From positions 1-26,077 of IMG/VR virus record IMGVR_UViG_3300049489_001254: a DNA stretch of 26,077 bases; one strand, 5' to 3'. Made by a program: the position numbers and the translations under genes. Under the pieces are notes generated by a model. It had not been told where the DNA came from. It worked only from the letters and a program-made list of their open reading frames with translations, and searched no databases. The stretch comes from a virus. This document shows positions 144-25,841 of this stretch, in pieces (position 1 is the stretch's first letter; each line of letters begins with the position of its first letter).

Positions 144-297
144 TGTTCACTGTTCTTTTCAAACATCGTTTGTTCTTCACTTTTCTCATAGGAAAGTTGT
201 CAACTCTTCGTTGGTTTTTTCTTTGGCTTTTCTAAAAAGTTTTAAATCTATCTTTTTTCGAAGGGGGGTCATGTCGTACTAAAAAAGGAGGTGTTCA
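144..297. repeat. outlying TGTTC half-sites of the upstream array
   Basis: Further TGTTC sites in the reverse orientation lie at 144-149 (TGTTCA), 151-156 and 171-176 (TGTTCT) and 292-297 (TGTTCA). They continue the same orientation as the right half of the cluster at 27-125. They may be weaker binding sites of the same protein. Confidence 0.45.
215..233 (+). repeat. T-rich GGC motif, copy 1
   Basis: T6-C-T3-GGC-T4-C-T in non-coding control DNA. It is shorter between the C and GGC than the consensus CTTTTCTTTTTTGGCTTTTC. Confidence 0.6.
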
Positions 298-345
298 TAT
301 TAGTACTTTATTGCGCCTCTCCAGATATCTGTGATCATGGTGGTT

Positions 346-402
346 GGGGGTGGGGGCTTATATCACACTTGTGATTAGGTTCCCCCTTTCTGTGGTAGGG
401 GG
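346..402. promoter_or_regulatory. G-tract block with competing hairpins and a TGTGAT palindrome
   Basis: Two G5 tracts (346-350, 352-356) precede the inverted repeat ATCACA-CT-TGTGAT (362-375), then C5 (382-386) and another G5 (398-402). C5 can pair with the G5 at 352-356, giving a long hairpin that includes the ATCACA/TGTGAT arms, or with the G5 at 398-402. CTTGTGAT recurs at 419-426, overlapping the -10 box of the next promoter, and a further TGTGAT is at 330-335. This suggests operator sites for a regulator of that promoter. The G-tracts could also form a G-quadruplex. The function is inferred. Confidence 0.5.
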
Positions 403-431
403 TTGACTGTATATATTGCTTGTGATATAAC
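403..431 (+). promoter_or_regulatory. sigma70 promoter for the first gene cluster
   Basis: The -35 box TTGACT (403-408), an exact 17-base spacer and the -10 box TATAAC (426-431) with an extended -10 TG at 423-424 make this the best promoter in the window. Transcription would start near 438 and run into the gene at 488. A TGTGAT site overlaps the -10 box, so repression by a protein binding the palindrome at 362-375 is plausible. Confidence 0.75.
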
Positions 432-450
432 AACTACAGCATAAGCCACC

Positions 451-470
451 CTTTTCTTTTTTGGCTTTCT
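451..470 (+). repeat. T-rich GGC motif, copy 2 (in the 5' leader)
   Basis: C-T4-C-T6-GGC-T3-CT, nearly identical to the consensus. It lies in the predicted leader of the gene at 488. The upstream AAGCCA (443-448) is the inverse of TGGCTT (462-467), so the leader RNA could fold a small hairpin here. Confidence 0.85.
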
Positions 471-487
471 CTTAAAACGGAGCATGT

Positions 488-1177
488 ATGGAATTTGGAG
501 AAGAACTGTATTACCAGTTGAATGAGCGTTCTCGCGTGAAGGGTATGTATGTGGATCAGCTGGCTGCTGTTAAGATGATCTTACATGCGCGATATCCGCT
601 ATTATGTCTGAAGCCTTTTGCTCCTCGCTTTCTTTTTCCAAATAGAGTGCCTATGGAGCTTCCGATGGATGAATGCTCTGCGAGCTTTGTTGTTAGGCAG
701 CGTTGTGATCTTGTGGCGGAAATGGAAAAAATAGATAAAAGAAGTTATAACGCTTTAAATTTGATAAACTTAGATATGAAGGGGAACGAGTATTTTATTC
801 CGCCTTTTGTCTTTTTTGCTCCCAAGAAGCTAACGCTTTTTAGAGAAAGTGGATTAGGCTCTGTTTTTGTCGTACGTATATCAAACAACATTAGCAGCAA
901 TGAAGGGTATGCTTTGGGATGGAATCCCGACATTATCGTTTGTAACGGCTTAAGTGAACTGGTTTTTGGCGACTTTTCAGAACAACGCTTATATTATGCA
1001 TCAGTAAAAAAACTAGAGTTTTCTGTATGCTATCCGTTGCCTGAGTCTTCTAACTCTTCCGCTGATGCTGATGTAGAGATGTCTTTTCAGCTGACGATTT
1101 TCTTTTTTAACTCTTGGGACTATGACTTATTAAAACGGAACATTATAGATAAAGGAGGTTTACGTGTTTCCCACTAG
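488..1177 (+). CDS. hypothetical protein, 229 aa
   Basis: I do not recognise this protein. It begins MEFGEELYYQ and shows no signal peptide, clear membrane segment or catalytic motif. The chain mixes hydrophobic beta-like stretches with charged loops, and the C-terminal third is rich in Phe and Tyr. The ATG at 488 follows a GGAG about five bases upstream. The gene is the first behind the promoter at 403-431, and its end overlaps the start of the next gene by 14 bases, so the two are translationally linked. It is probably an early or accessory phage gene, judged by position only. Confidence 0.75.
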   Translation: MEFGEELYYQLNERSRVKGMYVDQLAAVKMILHARYPLLCLKPFAPRFLFPNRVPMELPMDECSASFVVRQRCDLVAEMEKIDKRSYNALNLINLDMKGNEYFIPPFVFFAPKKLTLFRESGLGSVFVVRISNNISSNEGYALGWNPDIIVCNGLSELVFGDFSEQRLYYASVKKLEFSVCYPLPESSNSSADADVEMSFQLTIFFFNSWDYDLLKRNIIDKGGLRVSH

Positions 1178-1721
1178 CAAAGAAAAGCTCATCCCTCTAC
1201 TTGAGATTGTTAGTGATCAATATTCGTCGGCGAAGTTTAAGTTGTATAATACCGAGGCCTCAAAAGAGGAGGTAGAGTATGAGAGGCTGTGCGATATTAA
1301 AAATATCCGCTACCTTCTTCTGGCTGCTGTTGATGGAGTTAAAGAGCCGCTATATAGTGCAGCGGAAAGGCGCTTGGCTAGCGCTGTCCTTTTTTCGGAA
1401 ATTAACCCAGATGAACTTTTCTGTGACCGATGGAGGAAGGGTGGCTGGTTTCGCTATTTCCTAACAGAGGCCGGCTTTCGTACTTTTTTTTCTTTCTTTC
1501 GTAAAACTAATGGGAAAAGTAATGGGGGTATTGTTTTATTTCGGCTTCGCTCATTGGTTTTTATCATCCTATGTGGGCTTATTCTGATCATAGAAGCTCA
1601 AGGGGATCTGTCTTGGTTACGTGCCCAAACAGATCGACTTTTCCCAGATCCAACTAGCGATTTAAAAAATATCAACCTTGGGTTATTCAGTTTTCATTCT
1701 GTTCATTTAGGTTGGGTTTAG
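1164..1721 (+). CDS. hypothetical protein with one membrane segment, 185 aa
   Basis: The GTG start at 1164 is supported by a perfect AAAGGAGG at 1151-1158, five bases upstream. The first two thirds are a soluble, charged domain. Near residues 128-148 a basic stretch is followed by a strongly hydrophobic run (SLVFIILCGLILIIEA), the only clear transmembrane helix among these small genes. The short tail after it is polar and ends HSVHLGWV. A single C-terminal-side anchor would fit a protein attached to the inner membrane, but no family is recognised. It overlaps the gene before it and is followed by the small gene at 1757. Confidence 0.7.
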   Translation: MFPTSKEKLIPLLEIVSDQYSSAKFKLYNTEASKEEVEYERLCDIKNIRYLLLAAVDGVKEPLYSAAERRLASAVLFSEINPDELFCDRWRKGGWFRYFLTEAGFRTFFSFFRKTNGKSNGGIVLFRLRSLVFIILCGLILIIEAQGDLSWLRAQTDRLFPDPTSDLKNINLGLFSFHSVHLGWV

Positions 1722-1756
1722 TTGTATACAGAAACATCATGAAGGGAGAACGTGTT

Positions 1757-2029
1757 ATGGAGAGTGAAGTGCATTTTCGTAAAAAGAGACCTAAAGCCGA
1801 TGCTTTTTACTTTAATTGGTTCATTAAAGCATTAGAAGAAATTCCGCAAACTGTTATAGCTGGGGTAGATTTATCGACGGCTGATGATGCAAGAAAGCAG
1901 GCCGTATGGGAAAAGGTTTTTGAAGTGGTTTCGATACACAGGGAAGCCAAAAGAAAAGAAGATTTGCGTATAAATCAAAGGCGGGATTACTACAGGAAAA
2001 AAGCCGCTAGGTTGAGGCAAGCTCCCTAA
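1757..2029 (+). CDS. small basic hypothetical protein, 90 aa
   Basis: The frame is open further upstream from a TTG at 1712, but ATG 1757 is chosen because GGGAG (1744-1748) lies eight bases before it and the upstream codons have no ribosome site. The protein begins MESEVHFRKK. Its C-terminal half is a highly basic, probably helical stretch (REAKRKEDLRINQRRDYYRK), which suggests nucleic-acid binding or a coiled coil. The codons for REAKRKE carry a reverse-orientation copy of the T-rich motif. No family is recognised. Confidence 0.65.
   Translation: MESEVHFRKKRPKADAFYFNWFIKALEEIPQTVIAGVDLSTADDARKQAVWEKVFEVVSIHREAKRKEDLRINQRRDYYRKKAARLRQAP
1942..1960 (-). repeat. T-rich GGC motif, reverse-orientation copy inside a gene
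   Basis: The plus strand reads GAAGCCAAAAGAAAAGAAG. The minus strand reads CTTCTTTTCTTTTGGCTTC, very close to the copy at 8075-8095. It is one of only two clear copies that point leftward. Confidence 0.6.
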
Positions 2030-2044
2030 TTTGCTGCTACCCAC

Positions 2045-2064
2045 CTTTTCTTTTTTGGCTTTTC
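2045..2064 (+). repeat. T-rich GGC motif, copy 3 (reference copy)
   Basis: Exact CTTTTCTTTTTTGGCTTTTC in the 63-base gap between two genes, preceded by CCAC as at several other copies. No hairpin is evident directly upstream. Confidence 0.9.
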
Positions 2065-2092
2065 TTGTGCATCGATCGAGCTAGGAGGGTTG

Positions 2093-2689
2093 ATGGCTGA
2101 GAAGAAAAAAAAGACAAGTCAGAAAGTTGTCTACAACGCTCTGGATGAGGACAGTGAAGTTCTTTCCTCTTCTTCGCCTCCTATAGAAGAATCGCCTAAG
2201 CCTTGCACGGATCGTGAGATGAGGCTTGGTCATGACGGCTATCCTGATATTGATCCGCATGAGCCGATAGAATCGTATAATGAACGGATCCTCCGCTTTA
2301 TAAGCCGTTTTGAGACCAACATCATGAAACGGGCTCGTGCTATAGAGGCGGTCATTTTGATGGCGTATATTCGTCACATACAAGTAGGGGAATTGCCCAA
2401 GTCGTTTGTGTGTTATCATCCTCAAACAAAAGTGGTTGTTGGTACGTACGAAGTGATAGAGCAGTTACAAAAGCGCCCTTCGGCGATTTATAAGAAGATG
2501 GAGCCGATGATTGTACAAGCGTTTCACCAAGGGAAGACCCAATGGTATCGCACGGGGGAGCGCTTGTTTAAGAGTGGTAAAGCGCAAGAGTTTATGGATT
2601 TCTTCAATAAGAGCTTTGGTGTTGACGATGAGCGGGAGCGTTTCCGTAAAAAAACCTCCGCTTTTATTGATGTTGATGATACAGTGTAG
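2093..2689 (+). CDS. hypothetical protein, 198 aa
   Basis: A TTG at 2090 precedes the ATG at 2093 in frame. ATG is chosen because AGGAGG at 2083-2088 leaves four bases to it and only one to the TTG. The N-terminus is a lysine-rich, low-complexity region (MAEKKKKTSQ) followed by an acidic Ser/Pro linker up to about residue 45. The rest is a predicted helical, mixed-charge domain without a recognisable motif. It is the last gene of the first cluster and is followed by two terminator-like hairpins. Function unknown. Confidence 0.75.
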   Translation: MAEKKKKTSQKVVYNALDEDSEVLSSSSPPIEESPKPCTDREMRLGHDGYPDIDPHEPIESYNERILRFISRFETNIMKRARAIEAVILMAYIRHIQVGELPKSFVCYHPQTKVVVGTYEVIEQLQKRPSAIYKKMEPMIVQAFHQGKTQWYRTGERLFKSGKAQEFMDFFNKSFGVDDERERFRKKTSAFIDVDDTV

Positions 2690-2723
2690 ATAGAAGCAGT
2701 TGTTTGCTGTTTTCTGCATCGGT

Positions 2724-2752
2724 AAAAACAGGGTTACATGCGCCCTTGTTTT
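2724..2752 (+). terminator. terminator-like hairpin
   Basis: AAAACAGGG (2725-2733) pairs with CCCTTGTTTT (2743-2752) with one bulged T. It lies 35 bases after the stop of the gene at 2093. The stem ends in T4, with no longer U-tract, so it is weaker than the hairpin that follows. Confidence 0.45.
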
Positions 2753-2791
2753 GCTATGTTTTCTGATATCTGTTTGAACGAGCTCTTATTG

Positions 2792-2827: not shown

Positions 2828-2840
2828 TCAAATCCCCCTC

Positions 2841-2863
2841 ATTTTCTTTTTTGGCTTTTTTTC
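2841..2863 (+). repeat. T-rich GGC motif, copy 4
   Basis: A-T4-C-T6-GGC-T7-C in the non-coding gap, preceded by CCCCCTC. Its TTGGCT lies exactly 17 bases upstream of a TATAAT box. Confidence 0.9.
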
Positions 2864-2879
2864 TAAAACCAGCTATAAT
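2851..2879 (+). promoter_or_regulatory. promoter-like site overlapping motif copy 4
   Basis: TTGGCT (2851-2856) and a perfect TATAAT (2874-2879) are 17 bases apart. Transcription would begin near 2886. No ORF follows directly. Two hairpins with T-tracts follow instead, so the product could be a short RNA. The weak -35 box comes from the repeated motif. The same spacing is not seen at other copies. Confidence 0.45.
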
Positions 2880-2896
2880 ACCAATGGTTTACTGGA

Positions 2897-2926: not shown

Positions 2927-2965
2927 CGTATTGAAAATAGTCCATGCATAAAATGTTCGTAGTTT

Positions 2966-3001
2966 TGGAGATGGGGTCTATCCATCTCCATTTTTCTTTT
3001 T
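2966..3001 (+). terminator. strong Rho-independent terminator whose U-tract is the repeated motif
   Basis: TGGAGATGG (2966-2974) and CCATCTCCA (2982-2990) make a perfect 9-bp stem with a 7-base loop, followed directly by T5-C-T5. That T-tract is the first part of a T-rich GGC motif copy. Confidence 0.85.
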
Positions 3002-3008
3002 GGCTTGT
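2991..3008 (+). repeat. T-rich GGC motif, copy 5
   Basis: T5-C-T5-GGC-TTGT, placed immediately after the hairpin at 2966-2990 so that it doubles as the terminator U-tract. Confidence 0.8.
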
Positions 3009-3029
3009 CCCAATACATATTCTTTCACA

Positions 3030-3667: not shown

Positions 3668-3697
3668 GGGAACAAAAAAGTGCCCCTTCTTTTTTTT
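3666..3697 (+). terminator. terminator whose U-tract is the repeated motif
   Basis: AGGGG (3666-3670, overlapping the TAG stop) pairs with CCCCT (3683-3687) around a 12-base loop, followed by TC and T8, which belong to motif copy 6. Confidence 0.65.
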
Positions 3698-3710
3698 GGC
3701 TTTTTTTCTT
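3687..3710 (+). repeat. T-rich GGC motif, copy 6
   Basis: TT-C-T8-GGC-T7-CTT, preceded by GCCCC. It sits directly behind the hairpin that ends the gene at 3083. Confidence 0.85.
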
Positions 3711-5735: not shown

Positions 5736-7415
5736 CTAACCCTTTTTCTTTTTTGGCTTTTCCTCTTCCGATTTCTTCATTAACTCCTCTAAAGAGGGAA
5801 GATCTAAACCTTTGACACCATAATCGATAGCGATTTTCATCAAGTCCTTGTTTCTAAAAGATCCGGCCAAGGAGGCTGCTCCTTTTGCCCCTTCTTTTAA
5901 CACCTTCTTGCCAATTAACGCCTGTACCCCTTTTGTAGGCCCTCCGATGAAAGCAGCAGGGACGGTGTACTTGGTTAGATGTTCAATACCTCCAGCTATC
6001 TCTTCTCCCCATTTGGTTGCTTGGTGAATTGCTTCTGCTCTTTTCCATGGCTCTAAAAAAGCAGGGTTTATTTTTCCGTAATCGTTAATTAACGCGTCCG
6101 CTTTTTTTGCTAATGCGTCTACATTTTGTTTTACCGCTTTTCTAATTCCCTTTAAGTTTGGGTCAGCCCATAACTTATTTCTAAAGTTATTAATATTTCT
6201 TTTAAATCTAATTAATTCTACTGGGTCAATTCGGCCAGACGCCTTTTCTAGGGGTTTAAAAAATTCTCTAACTAAGTCTCTAGCTGGTTCTTCGTGTAAT
6301 AACACCTGGTTTTTTCCAGACACGTCCGCTATTTTTTTTAGATCTTCCAGTATGGGTTTTGGAATCTTGTAGGATGGAATTTCTGATCCCAATCCAGACT
6401 CGTTTAAAGATGGGATTTTCGGAGCATACTTTTTAGCATCCGCTATCCTAGGGCTTACCATTTCATATCCTTCAGGAACTCCTTTTAAAGCACGATGTGT
6501 GTTCCTTGGGGGTGGCGTTCTATATTTTGTAGGCTTGTTTCTTAAAATAGCCTTTAATAGCTTCGGATTTGCTATTTCAGAGGCTTGAGATCCTTGTTCT
6601 ACAATATCCTCAGCTAATTTAGGAGTCATCTTTTCATATCCAAAAGCGCTTTTTGTTAAAGCATCCTCCGCCAACTGTGTTGTTGGCTTTGCTGCTGATT
6701 TAGGAGTCTTTGATATCATAGCTTGTGCGTCTTCATATAAAGCATCTTTCAGTTTCGCTCCAGCAGAAGGATTGAACATGCTAATTAACAGCATGATTCC
6801 CGCTTTTACGGCTGCTTGTGTTTTAGATCCTCCCCCTAATCCTTCTACAAATTGCCTCGCAGCAGATCCTCCAGCGGCAGCTAGAACATCTTTACCCAAT
6901 GTTGCAGCAAGGCTGCCTGCGCCACCTGTTAAAGCCATAGGGAGAATTTCCCCAAAGGTTTCCGCCGTTTCGTCTAGAAATTCTTGTACCTTAGGGTTGA
7001 TATTTTTATTTTCCGTTTGAGGCAAAATAGTATTTAAAGCCATCTGCATCAGCTCTTTATTTGTTTTTGCAGATGCAGCTCCCTGCCTAGTGTTGCCTAT
7101 ATCTGTCATTGCAGCTGTATTACCAATACCTTGTCCTATTTTAGCAAACCCTCGTGCTGCTGTTTTTCCCCATTCTTTCAATGTTTCCCACATGGACTCA
7201 TTCTTTTTTTGTTGAATGGCACCCCTTTGGGAATCATAGATTTTCATCGCCTCTATCTGCTTGGGCGTAAGCCCTTTCTGTTCAGGCTGTCCTTCAGGTT
7301 CTCCCATTTCAGTCTCACCTACAGGCTCTTCTATCACTTTTTTTTCTTGGCTTTTTGCTTGATCATAAGCGCGCATAGCTTCTAGCTGTTTTTGTGAAAA
7401 AGCGGGCTGACTCAT
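5736..7415 (-). CDS. putative DNA-ejection (internal virion) protein, 559 aa
   Basis: The length and make-up resemble the large ejection proteins of P22-type podoviruses (gp16-like, about 600 aa), though I see no diagnostic motif. A charged N-terminus carries a duplicated segment: residues 6-26 (QKQLEAMRAYDQAKSQ) and 49-71 (PKQIEAMKIYDSQRG). Residues around 155-215 are rich in Ala and Gly and amphipathic or hydrophobic, fitting membrane insertion during DNA entry. The rest is helical and lysine-rich, ending in KPKKKKG, which is encoded by the T-rich motif. GGAGG lies seven bases before the ATG. The gene overlaps the upstream gene as ATGA and is the last of a three-gene leftward operon. Confidence 0.6.
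   Translation of the reverse strand: MSQPAFSQKQLEAMRAYDQAKSQEKKVIEEPVGETEMGEPEGQPEQKGLTPKQIEAMKIYDSQRGAIQQKKNESMWETLKEWGKTAARGFAKIGQGIGNTAAMTDIGNTRQGAASAKTNKELMQMALNTILPQTENKNINPKVQEFLDETAETFGEILPMALTGGAGSLAATLGKDVLAAAGGSAARQFVEGLGGGSKTQAAVKAGIMLLISMFNPSAGAKLKDALYEDAQAMISKTPKSAAKPTTQLAEDALTKSAFGYEKMTPKLAEDIVEQGSQASEIANPKLLKAILRNKPTKYRTPPPRNTHRALKGVPEGYEMVSPRIADAKKYAPKIPSLNESGLGSEIPSYKIPKPILEDLKKIADVSGKNQVLLHEEPARDLVREFFKPLEKASGRIDPVELIRFKRNINNFRNKLWADPNLKGIRKAVKQNVDALAKKADALINDYGKINPAFLEPWKRAEAIHQATKWGEEIAGGIEHLTKYTVPAAFIGGPTKGVQALIGKKVLKEGAKGAASLAGSFRNKDLMKIAIDYGVKGLDLPSLEELMKKSEEEKPKKKKG
5741..5763 (+). repeat. T-rich GGC motif, copy 7 (encodes the end of a minus-strand gene)
   Basis: CC-T5-C-T6-GGC-T4-CC, a near-perfect copy. 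On the minus strand it encodes the last residues (KPKKKKG) of the 559-aa protein. The same orientation on the plus strand is kept although the gene runs the other way. Confidence 0.85.
7338..7356 (+). repeat. T-rich GGC motif, degenerate copy in a minus-strand gene
   Basis: T8-C-TT-GGC-T5. The minus strand encodes KSQEKK here, a different reading frame from the copy at 5741 (KPKKKK). Confidence 0.5.
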
Positions 7416-8455
7416 TGATTATCCTCCAAAACCCATCTAGGGTATTTTTTTTCTTCTCCTGTTTCTGGGTCTATCATAGAAACCATTTCGTCTTTTTCCC
7501 TCCACTGTTCAATCAAGTTGCGCTCTGCCTTGTCTAGCAGTTCGTTGTACTTGAATTGGAGCTTACCTAGGGGAACCCCTTCGTTTTCTTTTTGCAGTTT
7601 AACTAGAATATCTTGTCCTAGCTTATTGAACTCGTTAGCTTGTCTAAGTCTTGATAAAATCTGCCTTCGACCTTGCTGCGTATTGGATAGCGTAGCTAAT
7701 TGGGACATAACGATAGGGAACTCTCTAGCCATGACTCTTCCGAATTTTTTGATCATATCAGACACAAGGGAGTTGACAGCTGAGTTATACTCTTGAGAAT
7801 CAGCAGATAAGAAGCCCTTTAGATAAGGGTGCTCCTCAGCCATTTGCGCAATAAAGGGGCTATTAATGTCTCCTGTTTCATTGAGTTTTTCTAGCTCATC
7901 TAGCGTCGCTTCCATTCGGTTTGCTTTTGAAGAAGCGTCAAATATGGGGTCTATCCATTTTTGGTTTCTAGCATAGTCATTGCTTTCATGGCTAAACTGC
8001 GCATGCTCCCCTTGGAGCTTCTCCTTTTCTATTCGAGCTAGGTCGGGATTAATCGCTAATTGACTATCTGTCAACTTCTTTTCTTTTGGCTTTCCTTTCA
8101 AAACTATTTTAAAGTCATCTTCGTCTAGACCCATAGGAAGCGCATCTGCCCCTTCGTTTGCAGATCCTTGCGCCTCATAACCAGGGGCGTAATCTTGGGG
8201 GGTATACGCCTGCTTTTGGATCATCTCTTTGCTCTTATCGCTAAAAAGACCAGATCCAAGTATTTGTGTTATAGATCTATGTAAATCTTCTGGTGTTTTG
8301 GCGTTATTGAGCGCTTCTAGTAGTTTGCTTTGCTGGTTCTTTTGTTGCCTTTTTTGAAAGGCTTCCCCTAGTGTATTGGTCGCTTGATTGATTCCCTCTA
8401 AAATAGAATTTCTTGGATTCGCCTCCATAGGCCTTTGTGGCAAGAAAAAAGGCAT
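7412..8455 (-). CDS. putative ejection or internal virion protein, 347 aa
   Basis: The protein is predominantly helical and charged, with a Gln/Asn-rich N-terminal part (residues 20-60), an acidic linker near 100-115 and a long helical C-terminal half. AGGAG five bases before the ATG fixes the start. Its stop overlaps the start of the 559-aa protein (ATGA), and it follows the 160-aa gene after 13 bases, so the three are cotranscribed. By order and size it would correspond to the middle ejection protein of P22-like phages (gp20-like), but I see no family motif. A motif copy is embedded near residues 121-126 (KPKEKK). Confidence 0.5.
   Translation of the reverse strand: MPFFLPQRPMEANPRNSILEGINQATNTLGEAFQKRQQKNQQSKLLEALNNAKTPEDLHRSITQILGSGLFSDKSKEMIQKQAYTPQDYAPGYEAQGSANEGADALPMGLDEDDFKIVLKGKPKEKKLTDSQLAINPDLARIEKEKLQGEHAQFSHESNDYARNQKWIDPIFDASSKANRMEATLDELEKLNETGDINSPFIAQMAEEHPYLKGFLSADSQEYNSAVNSLVSDMIKKFGRVMAREFPIVMSQLATLSNTQQGRRQILSRLRQANEFNKLGQDILVKLQKENEGVPLGKLQFKYNELLDKAERNLIEQWREKDEMVSMIDPETGEEKKYPRWVLEDNQ
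8075..8095 (+). repeat. T-rich GGC motif, copy in a minus-strand gene
   Basis: C-TT-C-T4-C-T4-GGC-T3-CC. It encodes KPKEKK on the minus strand and is almost identical to the reverse-oriented copy at 1942-1960. Confidence 0.7.
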
Positions 8456-8468: not shown

Positions 8469-8951
8469 TTAAATAAATGCTTTCGCCATTCCAGCAAGAG
8501 CGCTAATGATGCTTCCTATGCTTAAACCTTCTTTTTTTGGCTCTGCTTGTATTCCATACTCTTCCATAGGGTTTTGTAGCAGCGACTGCAATAAAGAGGC
8601 GATGCTATTCATAGCGTTCATTTGCAGCCCCGATCTTTGTCCTTGCATAGAGGAGGCCAGATCAGATGCGGCTTGTGTTTGTGCGCCCTGAAATGCAGAA
8701 GAGCCAAGCATACCACTGTTAGCAAAGTTTTGCTGAATTTGTGGCAGCAGCTTGTTTTGCAAAAAGTTTGCCCCTTGGTTTTCCATGTTTTCAAAAAATT
8801 TGCCATCTCCGCTCGCAATTCCTTGTAACGTATCTAAGGTGTTCCCCCCTCCCAGCTTAGCCATGATGTCTTTTAACATATTTGTTTGCTGGGGATTGTA
8901 TTTTGGGGTAACTACAGGCTTATAGCCTTTAGGAAGAGAAAAACCGCTCAT
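8469..8951 (-). CDS. putative small internal virion or ejection protein, 160 aa
   Basis: This is the first gene of the leftward operon. It begins MSGFSLPKGY. The centre (residues 70-115) is Gln/Ala/Ser-rich (QQNFANSGMLGSSAFQGAQ), a pattern I associate with small helical virion proteins encoded beside ejection proteins in podoviruses. The C-terminus is hydrophobic (IGSIISALAGMAKAFI) and could insert in a membrane. AGGAG lies four bases before the ATG, and the purine-rich complement of a T-rich motif runs straight into it. A P22 gp7-like role is inference from order and size. Confidence 0.55.
   Translation of the reverse strand: MSGFSLPKGYKPVVTPKYNPQQTNMLKDIMAKLGGGNTLDTLQGIASGDGKFFENMENQGANFLQNKLLPQIQQNFANSGMLGSSAFQGAQTQAASDLASSMQGQRSGLQMNAMNSIASLLQSLLQNPMEEYGIQAEPKKEGLSIGSIISALAGMAKAFI
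8528..8545 (+). repeat. T-rich GGC motif, copy in a minus-strand gene
   Basis: C-TT-C-T7-GGC-TCTG, encoding EPKKE on the minus strand. The right half is degenerate. Confidence 0.6.
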
Positions 8952-8958
8952 ATCGCTC

Positions 8959-8980
8959 CTTTTTCTTTTTTTGGCTTTTA
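8959..8980 (+). repeat. T-rich GGC motif, copy between divergent genes
   Basis: C-T5-C-T7-GGC-T4-A in the 73-base gap between the leftward operon and the terminase gene. On the minus strand its purine-rich complement ends in AAGGAG, the ribosome site of the 160-aa gene. No convincing sigma70 promoter was found in this gap for either direction. Confidence 0.85.
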
Positions 8981-9024: not shown

Positions 9025-10326
9025 GTGGGAAAGTTGCTGAAATTTAATCCTAAGCAAAAAGAATTTTTCTTAAGTACGAAAGGGAAGCCTTGCAAGATAA
9101 AAATTGGTGTAGGAAGCGTCCGAGGAGGCAAATCTTTTTGGCTTGTTGGAGAGATTGCTCACATCGCTATCAACGAGGAGATAGAGGGTGATTTGGTTTT
9201 TATGGCAGGTAACTTAGCAAACGTCCATTATAACATCTGCGGGGCTATTAGAGAGTGCTTAGGTGAAGATGTATTAAAACCTTATAATCCAAAACAAACA
9301 GAGATAGAATTTTTTGGTAGAAAAGTTCGATGCGTTGGAGGGGGGACGATTACCGCAGAAGATACGATTCGAGGATGGAACATTGCCTCTATTTTTTGCG
9401 ACGAGGTGACCTCTATCCACCCCAACGTTTTTGATATGTGTATGACTCGTTTAAACAAGCCTGGGTCTTGTTTTTTTGGAACCACTAACCCCGACTCCAA
9501 CTTACACTGGCTAAAAGTCAACATTTTAGACAGAAATCTTCCTGATGTGTACCACACCCATTTCACCTTAGACGATAATCCTATCTTAACGCAGGAGTAC
9601 AAAGATCACCTGAAAAACACCCTTAGAGGGGCTAATTTACAGCGATATTATTACGGCCAATGGGCGAGCGCTGATGGGGTGGTTTATCAAGATTTTGACC
9701 CTGTACGTCATGTTGGGGATTTAGTGGATGAGCCTTGTGAAGAGATGTTTTGTGGCGTCGATTTTGGAATGAACCATAAAACAGAGGCGGTTCTATGTGC
9801 AGTTAATCAGATGAGTACGCCACAAATATGGGTAAAAAAAGCGTTGTGTATTAATCAAACGCCTGACGATAGAATCACCATTGCAGCGATAGGTGAACGT
9901 ATTATGGGCTGGTTGTCTCATGACTTGCCCTCTGTTATTTATGTAGACCCTTCTGCTGTTGCGTTAAAGGTAGAGTTAAGAGAAAGAGCGCCTAAAGGCG
10001 TGTCTATTGTTGATGCAAAAAATGACGTATTGAACGGGATCAACTACATAAGCTCTCTGTTTTACAGAAATAAAATAAAAATAGATTTCCGCTGTACACA
10101 GCTGATTAACGAGCTGCATTCCTACACATGGGATGCGAAAAAGAGTATGAGTTCAGGAAAAGATGAGGTATCCAAACAGAATGATGATGGGGTGGATGCT
10201 TTACGCTATGCTCTTTATTCTAAGTTTGGTACGTCCATGGATACCATCATTAAAGAGCCTGAACGATTCTCTATTAATTTAAGAACCCCTAACTACAAGA
10301 ATGTTTATTCTGGAGCAAGATTTTAA
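9025..10326 (+). CDS. terL: terminase large subunit (packaging ATPase and nuclease), 433 aa
   Basis: This protein drives DNA translocation into the prohead and cuts the concatemer. A Walker A-like P-loop is at residues 30-37 (GSVRGGKS), Walker B at 122-127 (SIFCDE, catalytic Glu 127), and a coupling motif near 152-157 (GTTNPD). The nuclease domain shows its acidic residues at D246 (GVDFG), D308 (YVDPS) and D387/D388/D391 (DDGVDALRYAL). The length fits the family. The GTG start at 9025 is seven bases after AAGGG. A weak T-rich motif copy overlaps the P-loop codons (SFWLV). No small terminase is recognised in the window, and the portal lies 9 kb away, an unusual separation. Confidence 0.93.
   Translation: MGKLLKFNPKQKEFFLSTKGKPCKIKIGVGSVRGGKSFWLVGEIAHIAINEEIEGDLVFMAGNLANVHYNICGAIRECLGEDVLKPYNPKQTEIEFFGRKVRCVGGGTITAEDTIRGWNIASIFCDEVTSIHPNVFDMCMTRLNKPGSCFFGTTNPDSNLHWLKVNILDRNLPDVYHTHFTLDDNPILTQEYKDHLKNTLRGANLQRYYYGQWASADGVVYQDFDPVRHVGDLVDEPCEEMFCGVDFGMNHKTEAVLCAVNQMSTPQIWVKKALCINQTPDDRITIAAIGERIMGWLSHDLPSVIYVDPSAVALKVELRERAPKGVSIVDAKNDVLNGINYISSLFYRNKIKIDFRCTQLINELHSYTWDAKKSMSSGKDEVSKQNDDGVDALRYALYSKFGTSMDTIIKEPERFSINLRTPNYKNVYSGARF
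9131..9145 (+). repeat. T-rich GGC motif, weak copy in terL
   Basis: T-C-T5-GGC-TTG within the codons after the P-loop. This could be chance, because the protein is constrained here. Confidence 0.3.
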
Positions 10327-10676: not shown

Positions 10677-11260
10677 TTTAGTGTTGTCCATATCCTTTTT
10701 GCATATTGGTCTTTTGGTTTTTCTTTTGTAAAATTAATTAGACCTTTCTTATGAAGAGAGTAATAGATTTTCTTCATAAAGTCGCTATTATTAAATTCAA
10801 CAGCCTCTTTAAAAAGATCTCCTGAAATAAAGCGCGCTACTTTTTTTGCTAGTTCAGGTTGTCCAATGGAGACAAAATAGTCAATAGCGTCCTCCTCTTT
10901 TGTTCCTATGCCCTCAGGCAGACACCACACTAAATGATGCTCTTTTGTTTTATTATTATAGACATACAGGTCTTGCCCCCATTTTGGAGCAGGCATGGTT
11001 ATGCGTGGATGAAAGCACATATCTCTAAAAACAAACTTTACACTATTCCCTTCTACCCGGAGAATACTTTGATCTATAGGAGCCTTTTCCATAATAGTGA
11101 CACAAAAAAAACAAAAAGGAGCTTCTTTAGCTATATGTGTAGATTCTTCAAAAGCTTTTATGCAGTTTTTCAAGCCTACAGTTAGCTGATCGTTTCTCTG
11201 GATCACCAGATCAAGTGATTGACTCTTATTAAAACTATTTTCTTCTTTGGCTTTCTTCAT
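10673..11260 (-). CDS. hypothetical protein, 195 aa
   Basis: The frame is open back to 11434, but that part overlaps the scaffold gene. The ATG at 11260 has AGGGA eight bases upstream and gives MKKAKEENSF. No family is recognised. The centre has aromatic beta-type segments (KWGQDLYVYNNK, HHLVWCLP) and the C-terminal half is helical. Codons 2-7 carry a T-rich motif copy in the plus orientation. It is convergent with the small winged-helix gene and divergent from the scaffold gene, so the pair 10431-11260 looks like an inserted regulatory or accessory island. Confidence 0.65.
   Translation of the reverse strand: MKKAKEENSFNKSQSLDLVIQRNDQLTVGLKNCIKAFEESTHIAKEAPFCFFCVTIMEKAPIDQSILRVEGNSVKFVFRDMCFHPRITMPAPKWGQDLYVYNNKTKEHHLVWCLPEGIGTKEEDAIDYFVSIGQPELAKKVARFISGDLFKEAVEFNNSDFMKKIYYSLHKKGLINFTKEKPKDQYAKRIWTTLN
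11237..11258 (+). repeat. T-rich GGC motif, copy at the N-terminus of a minus-strand gene
   Basis: A-T4-C-TT-C-T3-GGC-T3-CTTC. The minus strand encodes KKAKEEN here, a third reading frame relative to the copies at 5741 and 7338. Confidence 0.6.
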
Positions 11261-12163: not shown

Positions 12164-13144
12164 ATGTCAATAGGAATTTTGCCGTCGTCTATAACAACTA
12201 TTAGTAATGCGGGTTCGCCTCAGCAAATTTATTTAAGACAAACCACGCTACAAACACCTCAAAATGCGGTTATTGCAAATATTTTTGCCATGACAGAAAG
12301 CATGCCGCAAAATGCTGGTTTTATTTACCGTGCTATACAAACCAAGAACTTAACTCCGCCAATAGCCCCCGTACCACCCGGATCGCAAGGCGGAGCTTCT
12401 CAGCCCCTTACTTTTAACGTGGTTGACATTTCTCTGCAGCAGTATGCTATGAACTCTTATATGGATACTTTCAACTTGCAGACAAACCAAATTGACATTC
12501 AACAAGAAACCGTTAAGCATATTGGTTTAGCGCTTATGCAGGCTGAAGATATTATTCAGTTTAACTCTCTTACTAGCGGCTTAAACCAAATTAATGCTTC
12601 TCAAGGAGGTAATCAAGATTTTCCCACCAACTTTAGCTTTAATGATGCTTTAACCATAACGGGATATTTAACGCTCAATGACACCCCTTATATCTATGAG
12701 CCTATTTCAGGTTCCGATAAGTTTGGAACAACGCCTGGAAGACCTGCTTATGGAGGATTGACCCCTGCAGCTCTACGGCCATCTTTCCAAGCCGACACCT
12801 CTTTTGTGGAAACACCTTATTATGGAGAGTCGATTTATTCTGGTCAGGAAATAGGCCGTCTAGGAAACATTGTTCTCAACACTTCTAAAAATATTCCTAT
12901 TTTCCAAGATGCGTCCGTAAATGGAAATCCTATTTATCAGACGATTGTTACTGGAGCTAATGCGTATATGGAATTGCATTTAGATGGAGTGGACAAAGTT
13001 TTGATGCAAAATGGAGCTGCTTTTACTGGTCCAAACGCTTTGCAAATGGTTGCAAATGGAAGAAACATTTACGGCACAGGAATCGTACAGCCTACTTGGT
13101 GCGTGAACGTATTAAGCACAGCTGGAATTAACCCTGCAATATAA
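12164..13144 (+). CDS. major capsid protein, 326 aa
   Basis: Position after the scaffold and the sequence together support this. Residues about 85-135 (VVDISLQQYAMNSYMDTF through IQQETVKHIGLALMQAEDII) resemble the long-helix and adjoining part of N4- or P22-type coat proteins with the HK97 fold. The C-terminal region (NAYMELHLDGVDKVLMQNG) gives the core beta strands. The usual length is 300-430 aa. GGAGG stands three bases before ATG 12164. The gene has no long gap to the scaffold, as expected for an operon of abundant head proteins. Family assignment is by pattern, not by search. Confidence 0.8.
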   Translation: MSIGILPSSITTISNAGSPQQIYLRQTTLQTPQNAVIANIFAMTESMPQNAGFIYRAIQTKNLTPPIAPVPPGSQGGASQPLTFNVVDISLQQYAMNSYMDTFNLQTNQIDIQQETVKHIGLALMQAEDIIQFNSLTSGLNQINASQGGNQDFPTNFSFNDALTITGYLTLNDTPYIYEPISGSDKFGTTPGRPAYGGLTPAALRPSFQADTSFVETPYYGESIYSGQEIGRLGNIVLNTSKNIPIFQDASVNGNPIYQTIVTGANAYMELHLDGVDKVLMQNGAAFTGPNALQMVANGRNIYGTGIVQPTWCVNVLSTAGINPAI

Positions 13145-15852: not shown

Positions 15853-16548
15853 ATGAGTGTTTACAATAATAATACGCCTTTAGCAAACGATTCCCCCTCT
15901 AAGTCTCAACCAGAGCTGCTAGGCAATACACGCGCTGTTAACAACGTTTTTGAACAAAATCATGAAAATCTCACCACAGGAACTGGCTTCCACACTGTTA
16001 TTAATCCTGTTACACAAACCACTCCTCCTGCAGCTGAGCCAAATGTAGGCGCCTTCTTTGCCCTACTAGACCAAAACTCCATTGCTCAGCTATTTTGGAC
16101 ACCACCAGCATCTCAGGGAGGCGCGACAGTCCAAATTACAGGCGCTACCACCTCTGGTAGTGCTTCAGGTTCTTACACACAAAATCTTACTATAGGAGGG
16201 ACTACCGTTGTATATACTCAGTGGTTTACTAAGCTACCTGCTTTTTCCATAAAAATCCTCCAAGCCATTTATACAAGCTCTTCATCGGTTACGCAAACAA
16301 CAACGCTTCTTCCATTTTTAGATAGCTCTGGAGGGTCTAACTATTTTCAGACCCAACCTATTATGTCTATAACAACCTCTTTTGCAGGAACATCTCCATC
16401 AGCAGGGAGTCCAATTTCTTCCCCTTGTTTTGCAGGATCAGCCCCATCTACACCTATTGGTACGTACGTAAACGGTCAAACTTTTAGGGTGGGTGCAACA
16501 TCCTCAAGTACACTGCAAACTTACACAGCTTTTATTGTAGGCTACTGA
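15853..16548 (+). CDS. tail-fibre-like virion protein, 231 aa
   Basis: The N-terminus (NTPLANDSPSKSQPELLGNT, then RAVNNVFEQNHENL) matches the pattern common in podovirus fibre or appendage proteins, in which a short helical anchor with SQPxLLxNxxxxNxxFxxxH precedes beta repeats. The rest is Ser/Thr-rich beta, ending YTAFIVGY. GAGG five bases before ATG and an overlapping stop/start with the next gene (TGATG) place it in the operon. It probably forms a tail appendage attached near the adaptor or nozzle. No enzymatic motif is seen. Confidence 0.6.
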   Translation: MSVYNNNTPLANDSPSKSQPELLGNTRAVNNVFEQNHENLTTGTGFHTVINPVTQTTPPAAEPNVGAFFALLDQNSIAQLFWTPPASQGGATVQITGATTSGSASGSYTQNLTIGGTTVVYTQWFTKLPAFSIKILQAIYTSSSSVTQTTTLLPFLDSSGGSNYFQTQPIMSITTSFAGTSPSAGSPISSPCFAGSAPSTPIGTYVNGQTFRVGATSSSTLQTYTAFIVGY

Positions 16549-19076
16549 TGAGCGATTTAACGTTTGCTTTACAGCGCTTTGAAAAAGGAATGGTTACCCG
16601 TTATGACCCTATCAACATTCCCCATGATGCATTTTTCCTTCTCAAAAATTGCTGTGTCTACCGAGGTGATCTTATATCGAAGTTTGGAGCTAAGTTTCTT
16701 TTTCGTGTTAGTGTACCTGTTACGTCTGCTAGTTTTGGGACGCTTGACGCCTCAGGCAATGGTACATTTTCTTTTTTGGCTTCTGCTCCTACGGGCGCTT
16801 CTCTGGTTCTTGGCTCCCTATCCCTTAGTGACGGGGTAAACGCCTATACTGACCCCTCCCCTCAAAACGGTTCTTTAACATCTACCCCTTCAGGTTCTGG
16901 TACCGTCAATTATGCTACTGGTACGGTAACGATTTCTGGAGGGAGTCCCAATGGAACGGTTTCTGGTTCCTATTCCTTCTATCCTTCTTTGCCGATTATG
17001 GGTTTTGCGACCTATACGACTAGCAACACTGCCCCCGACGACCAGTTGATTTTTGACCAGTACTACTCCTACCTATACGTAGGTTCAGGTTATGGGAACG
17101 CCTCTTTTAATAGCACGTACCAAAGTTCAGGTAAAACACTGCAGTGGGCTGGCGCTAACTACAACTTGTTTATGTCGTGCAACTTTGCTCAGGCGCTTTT
17201 TGTTTCCAACGGCAATCCAGGTATGCAGTTTGGCGTTATCACAGCTATCACTACAGGCGTTACAACCACTATCACCATCCCTAATCACGGCCTTGTGGTG
17301 AATGATTATGTGTGGCTAAATGAGATTATTGGTGCTACCTCGCTTAACGCTACTACCTATATTGTTACAGCGGTAACCACTAACACATTTACTATTGCAG
17401 CCAACACCTCTTCAGAAACGTACATTGGCGGTGGTATAGCTCAGTATTTAACCTCTACAGGTTCAGATACGTCTTTAGATGGTATCCGCTATTATACCTC
17501 CAATGGATGGGTTAACTTTGCTCCCCCTACAGCGCCCTTTAATCCCTCTACCAACAACAAAGTTCGCTACATCTGCGGGGCTACCTCTATCGTTGCATAT
17601 AAGGGGCGCCTGTTGCTTTGTGGCGTATGGACAACGTCTAGTAGCGGCGACATTGTACAAGAGCCTGGCACCTTTATTTACAGCGCTATAGGCACTCCTT
17701 TCTACTCCTCGTTTAACCCATTAAGCATTACCAATGCTGGAGCTTGGTATTTCTTTCCTATTGGGGTTTATGGCGGCTTTATTTCCTTTAATACATCCGA
17801 TTCCATCATCTCTGCCACTCCGTGGCTTGACTCTGTCCTGATAGAATTGCAGTCCTATAAAGTGCGCCTCATTTCTACGAACAGCGCAACAACCCCTATC
17901 TTGTACGAGTATGTGACATATGAATATGGAGGATTAAACAAGACAGCTACGATGACGTTTGGTAGCGGGGTTATCTCTCCCTCTTCAGGGGCAACCAACT
18001 CTAAAGGGCTGATTGCTGCTGGATTTACTATTACTAACACCACTGGTGTTCAGCGTATTGATGATGACAATCCTGACTTTGCGCTCACCATCGACAAGAC
18101 CAACAATGGATACCAGCGCATTATTTGTCAGCGCGACTATCAAGCAGAGATCATGTACTTCACTTTTCCTAACGAGCGTAATCAAAACATTTTCCCTGAT
18201 ACCACGTTGGTTTATAACTATCATGACCATACGTGGGCAATTTGGGATGAGAGCTTTACAGCGTATGGAACGCTATTTGCCACTAGTGGCGTGACATGGG
18301 CTGACTTGACAGAACCTTGGTACACTTACACTAATCCATGGAACTCTTTTGGCCTTGGATCGTACAATCTCTTTTATGCAGCTGGTAACCAGCAAGGGTA
18401 TGTATTTGAGAGAGATGTGTCTTCGGGTTCTGCTGAAAGCACCTCTTTGACTATAGCCGCCATTTCCGCCAATACGCTTACTATCTATAACCACAATTTG
18501 GAGACAGGGGTTTTCCTGCGCTTTTCTGGAGCCATTGGCGTTACTGGATTAAACGGACTAGTTGCCCAAGTCACCTCCGTTCCTAACTTAAACACCGTTA
18601 CCATTAGTCTAACGCCTACGGGAACCTATCTAGGTGGAGGGCAGGTGATTGTGCTTCGTCCTTTCTACGCACTGACAAAAGAATTTTCTTTTGGACTCCC
18701 TAAGGGGAAGGCGATCTCACTAAGCACAGTAGCGCTGTTAACCAACGTGACACCCGAAGGCGTAGGAAAGTTTTCTTTTTTTGGCTTTGCTAACTCTAAC
18801 TTAAGCAGCTCCTTTAATACACCTGTGGGTGATTACACCCCCTTTATTACTGGATCTATGACCACAGAAGGAACGGTCGATCCAGCTGTATACGCCATCA
18901 AATACTCTCAAAACAAACAGTGGGTTAGGAACTCTGCTGGCTCTACAGGAGGGTTTGCTGTTCAGCTTGGTTTAGGGCTTTCTCCTTCCCAGTTAGCTCT
19001 TGCAGAGCAAGCCCCCTTTGTCCTTTCGGCCTACATATTCAAGTATAGTGTAACCTCCACAGATGTAGGAACATAA
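16548..19076 (+). CDS. putative tail nozzle or packaged-DNA stabilisation protein, 842 aa
   Basis: The N-terminus (QRFEKGMVTRYDPINIPHDA, then FFLLKNCCVYRGDLISKFG) follows the pattern of podovirus nozzle and tail-stabilisation proteins (P22 gp10, T7 gp12), which begin with a Pro- and Asn-marked motif and form the tail channel beneath the adaptor. The long beta-rich body carries FCCH-like modules at about 230-300 and 633-705. An inserted beta domain at about 59-146 shares SGSGTVNYATGTVT with the adaptor insertion. Two T-rich motif copies lie in the codons for TFSFLAS (residues 73-79) and FSFFGF. The usual family length is 470-800 aa, so this is a large member. Confidence 0.65.
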   Translation: MSDLTFALQRFEKGMVTRYDPINIPHDAFFLLKNCCVYRGDLISKFGAKFLFRVSVPVTSASFGTLDASGNGTFSFLASAPTGASLVLGSLSLSDGVNAYTDPSPQNGSLTSTPSGSGTVNYATGTVTISGGSPNGTVSGSYSFYPSLPIMGFATYTTSNTAPDDQLIFDQYYSYLYVGSGYGNASFNSTYQSSGKTLQWAGANYNLFMSCNFAQALFVSNGNPGMQFGVITAITTGVTTTITIPNHGLVVNDYVWLNEIIGATSLNATTYIVTAVTTNTFTIAANTSSETYIGGGIAQYLTSTGSDTSLDGIRYYTSNGWVNFAPPTAPFNPSTNNKVRYICGATSIVAYKGRLLLCGVWTTSSSGDIVQEPGTFIYSAIGTPFYSSFNPLSITNAGAWYFFPIGVYGGFISFNTSDSIISATPWLDSVLIELQSYKVRLISTNSATTPILYEYVTYEYGGLNKTATMTFGSGVISPSSGATNSKGLIAAGFTITNTTGVQRIDDDNPDFALTIDKTNNGYQRIICQRDYQAEIMYFTFPNERNQNIFPDTTLVYNYHDHTWAIWDESFTAYGTLFATSGVTWADLTEPWYTYTNPWNSFGLGSYNLFYAAGNQQGYVFERDVSSGSAESTSLTIAAISANTLTIYNHNLETGVFLRFSGAIGVTGLNGLVAQVTSVPNLNTVTISLTPTGTYLGGGQVIVLRPFYALTKEFSFGLPKGKAISLSTVALLTNVTPEGVGKFSFFGFANSNLSSSFNTPVGDYTPFITGSMTTEGTVDPAVYAIKYSQNKQWVRNSAGSTGGFAVQLGLGLSPSQLALAEQAPFVLSAYIFKYSVTSTDVGT
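16766..16785 (+). repeat. T-rich GGC motif, copy in the nozzle gene
   Basis: A-T4-C-T6-GGC-TTCTG, a perfect core within the inserted beta domain. It encodes TFSFLAS. Confidence 0.8.
18771..18790 (+). repeat. T-rich GGC motif, second copy in the nozzle gene
   Basis: T4-C-T7-GGC-T3-GC, encoding FSFFGFA. The extra T shifts the frame of GGC relative to the copy at 16766. Confidence 0.75.
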
Positions 19077-22235: not shown

Positions 22236-22241
22236 GCAGAT

Positions 22242-22279
22242 AAGCCAAAAGAAAAACCCTTTCTTTTTTGGCTTTTTTT
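22242..22279 (+). terminator. hairpin made of two head-to-head T-rich motif copies
   Basis: AAGCCAAAAGAAA (22242-22254) pairs with TTTCTTTTTTGGCTT (22260-22274) over about 13 base pairs with two extra T, around the loop AACCC, and is followed by T5. It resembles a terminator, but the stem is mostly A/T with only GCC/GGC at the base. The left arm is the only clear intergenic copy in reverse orientation. Confidence 0.55.
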
Positions 22280-22874: not shown

Positions 22875-23419
22875 TGTCTTTAATTCAATATGGCAATGGC
22901 CCATTGTCATCCTCCAATGCAGACCAATTACAGGTGGTCAACGGTTCTACTGGAGCTGTCACCAACCTCGTAGCCAACTTCGTATCAGGACAAACACAAG
23001 TATTGACCGTTGGCGCAGGCAACACCCTAGCTCTGACACAACTTACCTTTTCTGGCTTTCCTGTCAATGCTATTACAGGCGCCACAGGCACGTTGGTTGC
23101 AAACCAAATTAACTACATAGAAGGTACAGGCACCGTTACCTTAACGATGCCTACGTCAGCCAACTTTGTTGCAGGTCAAGTGCTTTGGGTGATTGTTGCA
23201 ACAGCGACCACGGTCATTATTAACGCAACAACCGACCAGCAGTTTGCTGCCCCTGGTGTTGCTGGTTCAGGCTCTTTAAGTACATCGACGATTTCTACGG
23301 GAAACATCACTTCTACGGTGCCTGGTCTTATTATGCAGTTGTTCCAGATGCCGCCCATCACGCCACAAACTGTAGGATACACCTTCGTACAAGCTACGGC
23401 AAACGTGCAACTTAACTAA
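22874..23419 (+). CDS. tail-fibre-like beta protein, 181 aa
   Basis: The start overlaps the previous stop (TAATG). It begins MSLIQYGNGPLSSSNADQLQ. Residues about 75-140 (NYIEGTGTVTLTMPTSANFV, then TTVIINATTDQQFAAPG) match the C-terminal module of the preceding protein, so the two are related by duplication. It is Thr/Val/Ala-rich with no charged catalytic site. It is probably a fibre subunit. The stop is 13 bases from the next gene. Confidence 0.65.
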   Translation: MSLIQYGNGPLSSSNADQLQVVNGSTGAVTNLVANFVSGQTQVLTVGAGNTLALTQLTFSGFPVNAITGATGTLVANQINYIEGTGTVTLTMPTSANFVAGQVLWVIVATATTVIINATTDQQFAAPGVAGSGSLSTSTISTGNITSTVPGLIMQLFQMPPITPQTVGYTFVQATANVQLN

Positions 23420-23432
23420 TTAGGAGTTTTGT

Positions 23433-25841
23433 ATGGGCAATAATTACACTGGCGGCTTTTCTACAAACAGCAATGGGTATTTGGCCATACAAAACGGCGA
23501 CGTCTACACCACTACGGTTAGCAACCCTTCGGGGGGATCAGGTGGAAGCCCTGTCAATTTTCAACAAGGCTCGCTTGCGTCTAACGTAGCGATTAATACG
23601 GCGTTCACCTCTAATACAGCGCCATTAAGCGCCATGCAGTCTGTATCGACCGTTTCTATTACGCCTACCTCAGCTAATTCTCAGATATATGTCTGCTGCA
23701 CATTCCCTCAACAAAGCGCAGCCACAACCAATTTACAGGCAACGGTAGCTCTCTATTCTTCTTTAAATACCACAACGCCATTGAACATCACAACCGATGG
23801 TAATGGAACAATGTCTACTGCTGCCCCCAATAACAATAGTACAACCATTATAGATGCTATTGTGCCTTCTTCAGGAACAAGCAGCGCCATAACCTTTACA
23901 GCAGCAGCAGCCTATAGAAGCTCCCCTTACAACATTCTTTCTTCTGGCTTTTATCTTTATGCGTGGGAAGTGTTACCAAACACCCCTGGGGTAGCACAAG
24001 TAGCCTCAACCAATTTGGCTACTGGAGGCAATATTAATGCGCTCTTTACTGGAAGCTCTACAACAACTTATTCCCAAACAACGTCTTTAGGAACGCCCTA
24101 CACCTTTCAAAAAAATTACAGCGATACGAGTTTACTCATACGAACGAATGTGTGTGCCACCAACTTTTCTACGACCCAAAACTGCTTTTTTGCGATGTTC
24201 CTTTTCATTAGTGCTGGATCTTCCTTGTCCTCTTCTCAAACATTTTTTGGAAATATAGCTGAAGCTTCTAACGCTTATGGAACAATTCAAGTTCCACAAC
24301 AATACTCTAACGTTGGTTATCAATGGGTTGTTCCCGCCTCCTATTTTAACAATAGTACAGGAACTTACACATTAGCCTTTGGTGGTCAATGTCAAACATC
24401 TACTACCAACTGGAAGGTGGATAATACACCTCTAGTTACTATACAGGAAGTATCCGAAGCTAGTTATAGCGGCGTTATAGATTTAAGTACTGGCAACGTA
24501 TCTGGAACGGTTCCTTCCTTTTCTTCTACGATTCCTACCTATAATGCGGCTAACCAAATAGGTACGTATCTGTTAGCGAACAAGGCGACAGGATCCACAC
24601 AATTAGTTGAAGTAACCGCTACCAGCAATGCCGCTACCAACAATGTCGAAGAGGCCACACTTCTTGCGTTTTATGATAGTAATGTGACAGGAGCAGCCCC
24701 TATAGCTAATTTAATTGTCAGTGCTGCCACTTCTGGACCTGGGCAAGATTATAACGTACAGACAAGTAGCTTGACGTTTCCTGTTCCGTCTACAGGTGCA
24801 AACACCACTATTACCCTGTATGCATGTGCTGTATCACAAATAACAGGATATGTAGCCAATAGTGCTGGTATCTTTGCTGCTATTACAAGCCAAGAGCTAC
24901 TACCAGCTGCTACAGGAGCCGCAGGTGTAACCACCGTTTCCCCTCAAATTGGCTCCTATCTCACGGCAACCCCTACTACAGGCGACGTTGTTTTAAACAC
25001 CACACGAGCGACGCCTTTAAATGCAGGCCTTATTGCAACCCCTGGCACTATTGCTGCCAATCAGCTAGTACAGATGCAATCTACGGGAGCTGTAGGCGCT
25101 AACTTGACCAGTACGGATGCTTCAGTTGTCATTACCCCCGCATCTGGATCTATTGACCTCAGCTCTCCTTTAAATCTAGCGGTCACCCCCTCTACCACCT
25201 ATTTGCCTACACGTAGTAATAACCTGCAGATTAGCTCTACATCCCCTTCGTGGACAGCTGCTTACCTAACCAACGGCGTTTCTTCCTCCTCACTCCTCAA
25301 CATCTACGACCAGAGCGCTTCCTTTAACCAAGCACTGACGGCTACCTCTTCGCAATTAAACCTCGATGGATGGGTACGTTTTACCGTCACTACGGCGTTA
25401 TCGCCTTCTACCAACACCACTGTTACCCCTCAATGGATTCTCGCCCTACAGCCGTCGCCTGTTACGCAGTATCAATCCAAAATTATAGATATCATCGTTA
25501 CTCCTGTATTGCTGAATGCTGGCGCAACACAAGCACAGGCGTTTACGCTCAACAGTTACTATAGCGCCACGCTAGGGGTCAACGTTACGTCACTCACTGC
25601 CTCGCCTACGTTCACAGCCATGAACGTTTTTCCTTTGGCTTTTAACATCAACGGACAGACAGCTACCCCTACCGTAAATGACACCCCGCCATGGCTCGTT
25701 GCGGCCATTGTCCCCTTTAGCTCCAGCCCCTCTGGCTTATATACCGCTGGATCGGTACTAGTGATTTCTGCTCAGTGGCTACTATCAGCATCCGCAGGAT
25801 TGCAGGTGGCCTTTAACGTCGCTATGCGCACCCAATTTTGA
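23433..25841 (+). CDS. large fibre or spike-like protein with repeated beta domains, 802 aa
   Basis: The ATG has TAGGAG six bases upstream. After a Gly/Ser linker (about 30-45) the chain is a series of Thr/Ser-rich domains of about 150 residues. Two of them share an order of elements: ATVALYSS ... GFYLYAWEVLP near 100-187, and TLLAFYDS ... LYACAVSQI near 410-470. These echo the FYVCAY-type strand of the proteins at 3752-5699. The C-terminal domain (LDGWVRFTVTTALS, then PQWILALQPS) differs. A trimeric host-binding fibre is the likely role. A weak T-rich motif lies in codons for VFPLAF. No chaperone or autocleavage motif is seen. Confidence 0.65.
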   Translation: MGNNYTGGFSTNSNGYLAIQNGDVYTTTVSNPSGGSGGSPVNFQQGSLASNVAINTAFTSNTAPLSAMQSVSTVSITPTSANSQIYVCCTFPQQSAATTNLQATVALYSSLNTTTPLNITTDGNGTMSTAAPNNNSTTIIDAIVPSSGTSSAITFTAAAAYRSSPYNILSSGFYLYAWEVLPNTPGVAQVASTNLATGGNINALFTGSSTTTYSQTTSLGTPYTFQKNYSDTSLLIRTNVCATNFSTTQNCFFAMFLFISAGSSLSSSQTFFGNIAEASNAYGTIQVPQQYSNVGYQWVVPASYFNNSTGTYTLAFGGQCQTSTTNWKVDNTPLVTIQEVSEASYSGVIDLSTGNVSGTVPSFSSTIPTYNAANQIGTYLLANKATGSTQLVEVTATSNAATNNVEEATLLAFYDSNVTGAAPIANLIVSAATSGPGQDYNVQTSSLTFPVPSTGANTTITLYACAVSQITGYVANSAGIFAAITSQELLPAATGAAGVTTVSPQIGSYLTATPTTGDVVLNTTRATPLNAGLIATPGTIAANQLVQMQSTGAVGANLTSTDASVVITPASGSIDLSSPLNLAVTPSTTYLPTRSNNLQISSTSPSWTAAYLTNGVSSSSLLNIYDQSASFNQALTATSSQLNLDGWVRFTVTTALSPSTNTTVTPQWILALQPSPVTQYQSKIIDIIVTPVLLNAGATQAQAFTLNSYYSATLGVNVTSLTASPTFTAMNVFPLAFNINGQTATPTVNDTPPWLVAAIVPFSSSPSGLYTAGSVLVISAQWLLSASAGLQVAFNVAMRTQF
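25627..25646 (+). repeat. T-rich GGC motif, degenerate copy in a fibre gene
   Basis: T5-CC-T3-GGC-T4-AAC, encoding VFPLAF. Confidence 0.45.

Follow-up and report, generated by a model that had tools for sequence, protein, structure and literature searches.

The closest described counterparts of the element reported here are the stoperators of the cluster A mycobacteriophages (L5, Bxb1). In these phages, short asymmetric sites are scattered in large number through a single genome, predominantly in one orientation that follows transcription, and each phage carries its own version (PMC6550527). In cluster K mycobacteriophages, a repeated short word, the start-associated sequence, lies upstream of translation starts (PMC3203893). 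KOPS and Chi are short, strand-polar words of host DNA whose orientation is independent of gene direction. The stoperator sequence is 13 bp long and not T-rich, and it differs from the motif described below.

We analyzed a linear virus record of 26,077 bases, hereafter the window. Its genes include those for a terminase large subunit (9025-10326), a P22-like portal (PF16510; 19450-21642), a capsid-like protein (12164-13144) and a candidate DNA ejection protein (8469-8951). Single-protein scans of IMG/VR with the terminase, capsid and portal peptides revealed no close relatives, nor did searches of GTDB genomes with the terminase or of plasmids with the portal. Alignment profiles of terminase, portal and capsid retrieved many distant relatives, with approximately 25-35% protein identity. 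The whole records of these relatives are mostly ~33-42 kb, so the window probably represents part of a podovirus-like genome of similar size. Separately, positions 61-122 of the window (and 27-160) hold a cluster of TGAACA/TGTTCA half-sites, including a near-perfect palindrome, TTATATGAACAGCTGTTCAGATAA, that contains GAAC-N4-GTTC as in Gram-positive LexA boxes. The cluster at 61-122 is a candidate operator or replication-origin region.

The first-pass annotation had described a polar, T-rich repeat spread through the window. In its refined form, the motif is GGCTT preceded by a T-rich pyrimidine tract that is 10 or more bases long, and CCCTTTTCTTTTTTGGCTTTT is its best version. Counted as ten pyrimidines plus GGCTT, the motif occurs 16 times on the plus strand and twice on the minus strand, that is, as dispersed asymmetric sites in 26 kb, like stoperators. 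The copies listed previously were present at their positions, except that the site at 9131 is a tract of just 7 bases within the terminase P-loop region and is not a copy; the copy at 8528 is weak, and one at 23935-23950 had been overlooked. The copies are as follows.

215-232, plus strand: intergenic copy in the left region, without a C-run
446-470, plus strand: intergenic copy with CCACCC ahead, between a sigma-70-like promoter (403-431) and the gene start at 488
1941-1957, minus strand: copy within gene 1712-2029, upstream of the plus copy at 2045
2040-2065, plus strand: intergenic copy, closest to the consensus
2836-2864, plus strand: intergenic copy overlapping a promoter-like TTGGCT-17-TATAAT
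2991-3007, plus strand: intergenic copy immediately past a strong hairpin, upstream of TGATATAAT
3683-3709, plus strand: intergenic copy past a GGGG/CCCC hairpin
5738-5764, plus strand: copy with a C-run at a convergent junction, over the last codons (KPKKKKG*) of leftward gene 5736-7415
7338-7356, plus strand: copy within leftward gene 5736-7415
8075-8095, plus strand: copy within leftward gene 7412-8455
8528-8545, plus strand: weak copy (GGCTC) within leftward gene 8469-8951
8956-8979, plus strand: copy in the divergent gap between leftward gene 8469-8951 and the terminase gene (9025), overlapping the leftward ribosome-binding site
11238-11256, plus strand: copy at the first codons of a leftward gene (start ~11260), 111 bp ahead of rightward gene 11360
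16767-16785, plus strand: copy within rightward gene 16548-19076
18771-18788, plus strand: second copy within rightward gene 16548-19076
22241-22256, minus strand: copy forming the 5' arm of a terminator-like hairpin
22257-22277, plus strand: intergenic copy forming the 3' arm and T-tail of the hairpin begun by 22241-22256
23935-23950, plus strand: copy within rightward gene 23433-25841, absent from the earlier list
25627-25643, plus strand: copy within rightward gene 23433-25841, past a 6-7 bp hairpin

The enrichment of the motif is genuine, far above chance and sequence-specific. Allowing up to three mismatches, the pattern TTTCTTTTTTGGCTTT matched the window 21 times (20 on the plus strand, 1 on the minus strand). 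A comparison with shuffled sequences of equal composition had been proposed as a check, and the motif withstood it: dinucleotide shuffles gave 1.09 ± 1.08 matches, with a maximum of 5. GGC directly followed 17 of the 60 plus-strand pyrimidine tracts that were 10 bases or longer, against an expectation of approximately 2% (p ~2e-15). No other non-pyrimidine 5-mer was similarly enriched after these tracts, save overlapping words of the same sites, and swapping GGC for other trinucleotides gave fewer matches. Literature searches found no published description of the word. The copies share a stretch of only 18-20 bp, within which the length of the tract and the position of its C differ between copies, and their flanks lack homology. 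A longer transposed unit was rejected, as no flanking homology extended past ~20 bp; the short shared stretch between unrelated flanks points to binding sites instead.

Intergenic DNA amounts to 1.7 kb, or 6.4% of the window, and holds eight whole plus-strand copies where 0.26 would be expected. Most gaps are covered by these copies and the one at 5741, which spans the convergent gap and the leftward gene's final codons. The intergenic copies are also the strongest, and carry an additional C-run. As the first-pass annotation had noted, this C-rich run ahead of the T's precedes most intergenic copies: it was found in 8 of 9 intergenic-type copies, 2 of 8 in-gene copies and 37% of random places.

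In most gaps that carry a copy, a rightward gene begins 20-110 bp further on, and several copies are closely followed by ribosome-binding sites. In this respect the motif resembles the start-associated sequences, as a repeated short phage word upstream of translation starts. In contrast to those sequences, half of the copies are within genes, and many copies, lying there or at the convergent junction, lack the ribosome-binding site of a rightward gene. The same spacing would suit recognition of the motif as a promoter by an RNA polymerase or sigma factor specific to the phage, with transcription starting near the GG; a weak preference for A 13 bases after the first G of the motif would fit as well. 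Nevertheless, we consider such a promoter quite unlikely: most in-gene copies and the convergent-junction copy are not closely followed by a rightward gene, the upstream part consists of a variable tract rather than a fixed recognition sequence, and no phage polymerase was found in the window.

To evaluate the in-gene copies, amino acids were held fixed and synonymous codons were shuffled within genes (1000 shuffles). With the proteins thus fixed, eight in-gene copies were observed versus 0.7 expected. Specifically, rightward genes hold 4 sense-strand copies (0.32 expected) and leftward genes hold 4 antisense copies (0.40 expected), and neither number was reached in any of the 1000 shuffles. 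This excess, present in both gene directions, is the strongest evidence and argues for a word that acts at the DNA level. Five copies had been reported to lie in leftward genes without being turned round; indeed, all five keep the plus orientation. The motif therefore differs from stoperators, which are oriented to transcription, in keeping one DNA strand through leftward genes. In a homology-based comparison for insertions, the relatives were strongly diverged from gene 16548 at its two copies.

These data make it very unlikely that the motif is non-functional, arising by chance from T-rich composition, from lysine-rich coding or as a neutral repeat. T-rich tracts are numerous on the plus strand, and lysine-rich repeats can make similar words elsewhere, as in L055. 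However, dinucleotide, codon-order and synonymous shuffles all fell far below the observed counts, no other word was enriched after T tracts, and the window is approximately 100 times denser in the motif than its relatives, as detailed below.

The orientation of the copies had been read as a property of the genome rather than of transcription, like that of KOPS, Chi or uptake sequences. One part of this claim stands: a single strand is kept even through leftward genes, beyond protein constraint. The other part, a signal of this type deduced from orientation alone, does not. T-rich tracts are in general more frequent on the plus strand of the window, and the 16:2 bias of the motif, although real, is not significantly stronger than this background: it compares with 12:3 for T-rich tracts lacking GGC (Fisher p = 1) and gave p = 0.28 against all tracts, so a KOPS- or Chi-like role does not follow from orientation itself. 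At four-fold sites, rightward genes showed a strong T excess and that of leftward genes did not reach significance, and a replication-type skew is thus not evident. A plus copy follows shortly after each minus copy (22260 after 22241, and 2045 ~90 bases after 1941).

A polar DNA-processing signal, in which a phage enzyme reads one strand during replication priming, recombination or packaging as a phage-specific Chi or KOPS, is accordingly a possible but rather doubtful explanation. The constancy of strand across genes of both directions and the 16:2 ratio favor it; the similar bias of other T-rich tracts, the lack of a clear replication skew and the concentration of the strongest copies in gene gaps, a placement unnecessary for a translocation signal, weigh against it. 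We regard as unlikely the related proposal of a phage-specific, strand-polar guidance signal, in which a phage replication, recombination or packaging enzyme would read the pyrimidine tract and GGCTT on one strand genome-wide, through opposing genes too. The motif shares with KOPS and Chi a strand polarity independent of gene direction, but it is much longer, T-rich, concentrated in gaps and not repeated in any host genome examined.

Searches of other genomes supported this last distinction. The exact 19-base form had 110 isolated, scattered matches in GTDB species genomes. In 34 counted GTDB genomes that hold the motif core, there were one or two core copies per genome. A host-wide polar signal of the KOPS/Chi type, which would be over-represented in the chromosome, is therefore excluded for the genomes examined. 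Among IMG/VR virus records, searches with the exact motif returned isolated matches and no record with many true copies; 50 motif-selected records held 1-5 loose copies each. Two candidate carriers were dismissed: L055, whose lysine-rich repeats give similar words, and L384, with three chance-like copies. Across 178 loci from relatives (2.6 Mb, including a few loci sharing the terminase only), the density was 0.16 per 26 kb, and 40 whole relative records held 0-3 loose copies each versus 12 in the window. Conservation in relatives, which the first-pass annotation had looked to, was thus absent in distant ones. The motif is restricted to its own phage lineage, where it occurs in most gaps and, beyond protein constraint, in genes of both directions.

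In another branch of the group (L348, L386, L346), the intergenic DNA carries a distinct dispersed element of constant orientation, TTGACTTGGA-(variable hairpin)-AACAAGGGG, at 16733-18950 of L348, at 9698-11940 of L386 and in the L346 record, with some copies just before a start codon. Dispersed, lineage-specific words may therefore be a habit of this phage group. Other repeats were also observed among the relatives. In L299, AGGCAAGTTTT(G/A)GGAGA occurs three times at leader-like positions (18050, 18845 and 19134), as a further lineage-specific repeat. Short intergenic tandem arrays of the AACGAAACGT, AGTTAAGTT and GGGCAAAGTGTTAGG types (L340, 658-708; L368, 8209-8330; L375, 235-310) are possible origins or binding arrays.

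We also evaluated hairpins beside the motif. A hairpin directly precedes the T-tract at only ~4-5 of 17 sites. Stems ending at the tract were no commoner than at random places (p = 0.74; p = 0.015 for upstream energy), and the motif as a general intrinsic terminator was rejected on this basis. The copies at 2991, 3687 and 22257 may each be a terminator, and 22241-22277 has the textbook shape of one. An RNA-level element of rightward transcripts, serving as a U-rich leader or 3' end (terminator arm, or site for the ribosome or an RNA-binding protein), would fit this shape, the hairpins ahead of 2991, 3687 and 25627, and the copies immediately upstream of ribosome-binding sites. It is nonetheless rather improbable: beyond the stem frequencies, the copies in leftward genes would occur on antisense RNA only, and a U-tract has no need of a conserved GGC. 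The motif had no match in Rfam 15.

Promoter-like sequences occur at three copies (446-470, 2836-2864 and 2991-3007). The first lies just downstream of a near-consensus sigma-70 promoter, TTGACT-17-TATAAC, at 403-431, upstream of gene 488; the promoter scan had overlooked it because its last base is C. The copy at 2991-3007 lies just upstream of its promoter-like sequence. The motif as a sigma-70 promoter was rejected, as only the copy at 2851 has TATAAT at the right distance. A sigma-54 promoter, suggested by TTGGC, was likewise rejected by eye, with GC at the right distance only in the copy at 2045.

Based on these studies, we tentatively favor the explanation that the copies are dispersed, asymmetric, putative recognition sites for a phage-encoded protein, most likely acting on transcription. 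We infer here that a protein binds the motif, that it is phage-encoded and that transcription is its target. Such a protein would recognize the pyrimidine tract and GGCTTT on double-stranded DNA; once bound, it could occlude promoters and, where genes meet, block elongation, loosely in the manner of the cluster A mycobacteriophage stoperators. Because the motif is not a repeated word in any bacterial genome examined and is absent from distant relatives, the sites are probably read by a protein of the phage itself, and the three copies at promoter-like sequences favor transcription control. Two features argue against these recognition sites: the variable tract length and placement of the C would be unusual for a rigid protein site, and the copies are not turned round in leftward genes, contrary to a stoperator-type array. 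No phage immunity repressor was recognized among the window's proteins. That the window yielded no candidate motif-binding protein, and the searches no near relative with conserved sites, also weighs against this explanation.

If the copies form a binding-site array, they would mark a system for regulation or DNA handling that operates phage-wide, in a podovirus-like group that is abundant and uncultivated and whose regulation appears to be unstudied. Should the polarity of the motif prove functional, the phage would have its own equivalent of KOPS or Chi. Under either reading, the word would provide a ready bait for its protein.
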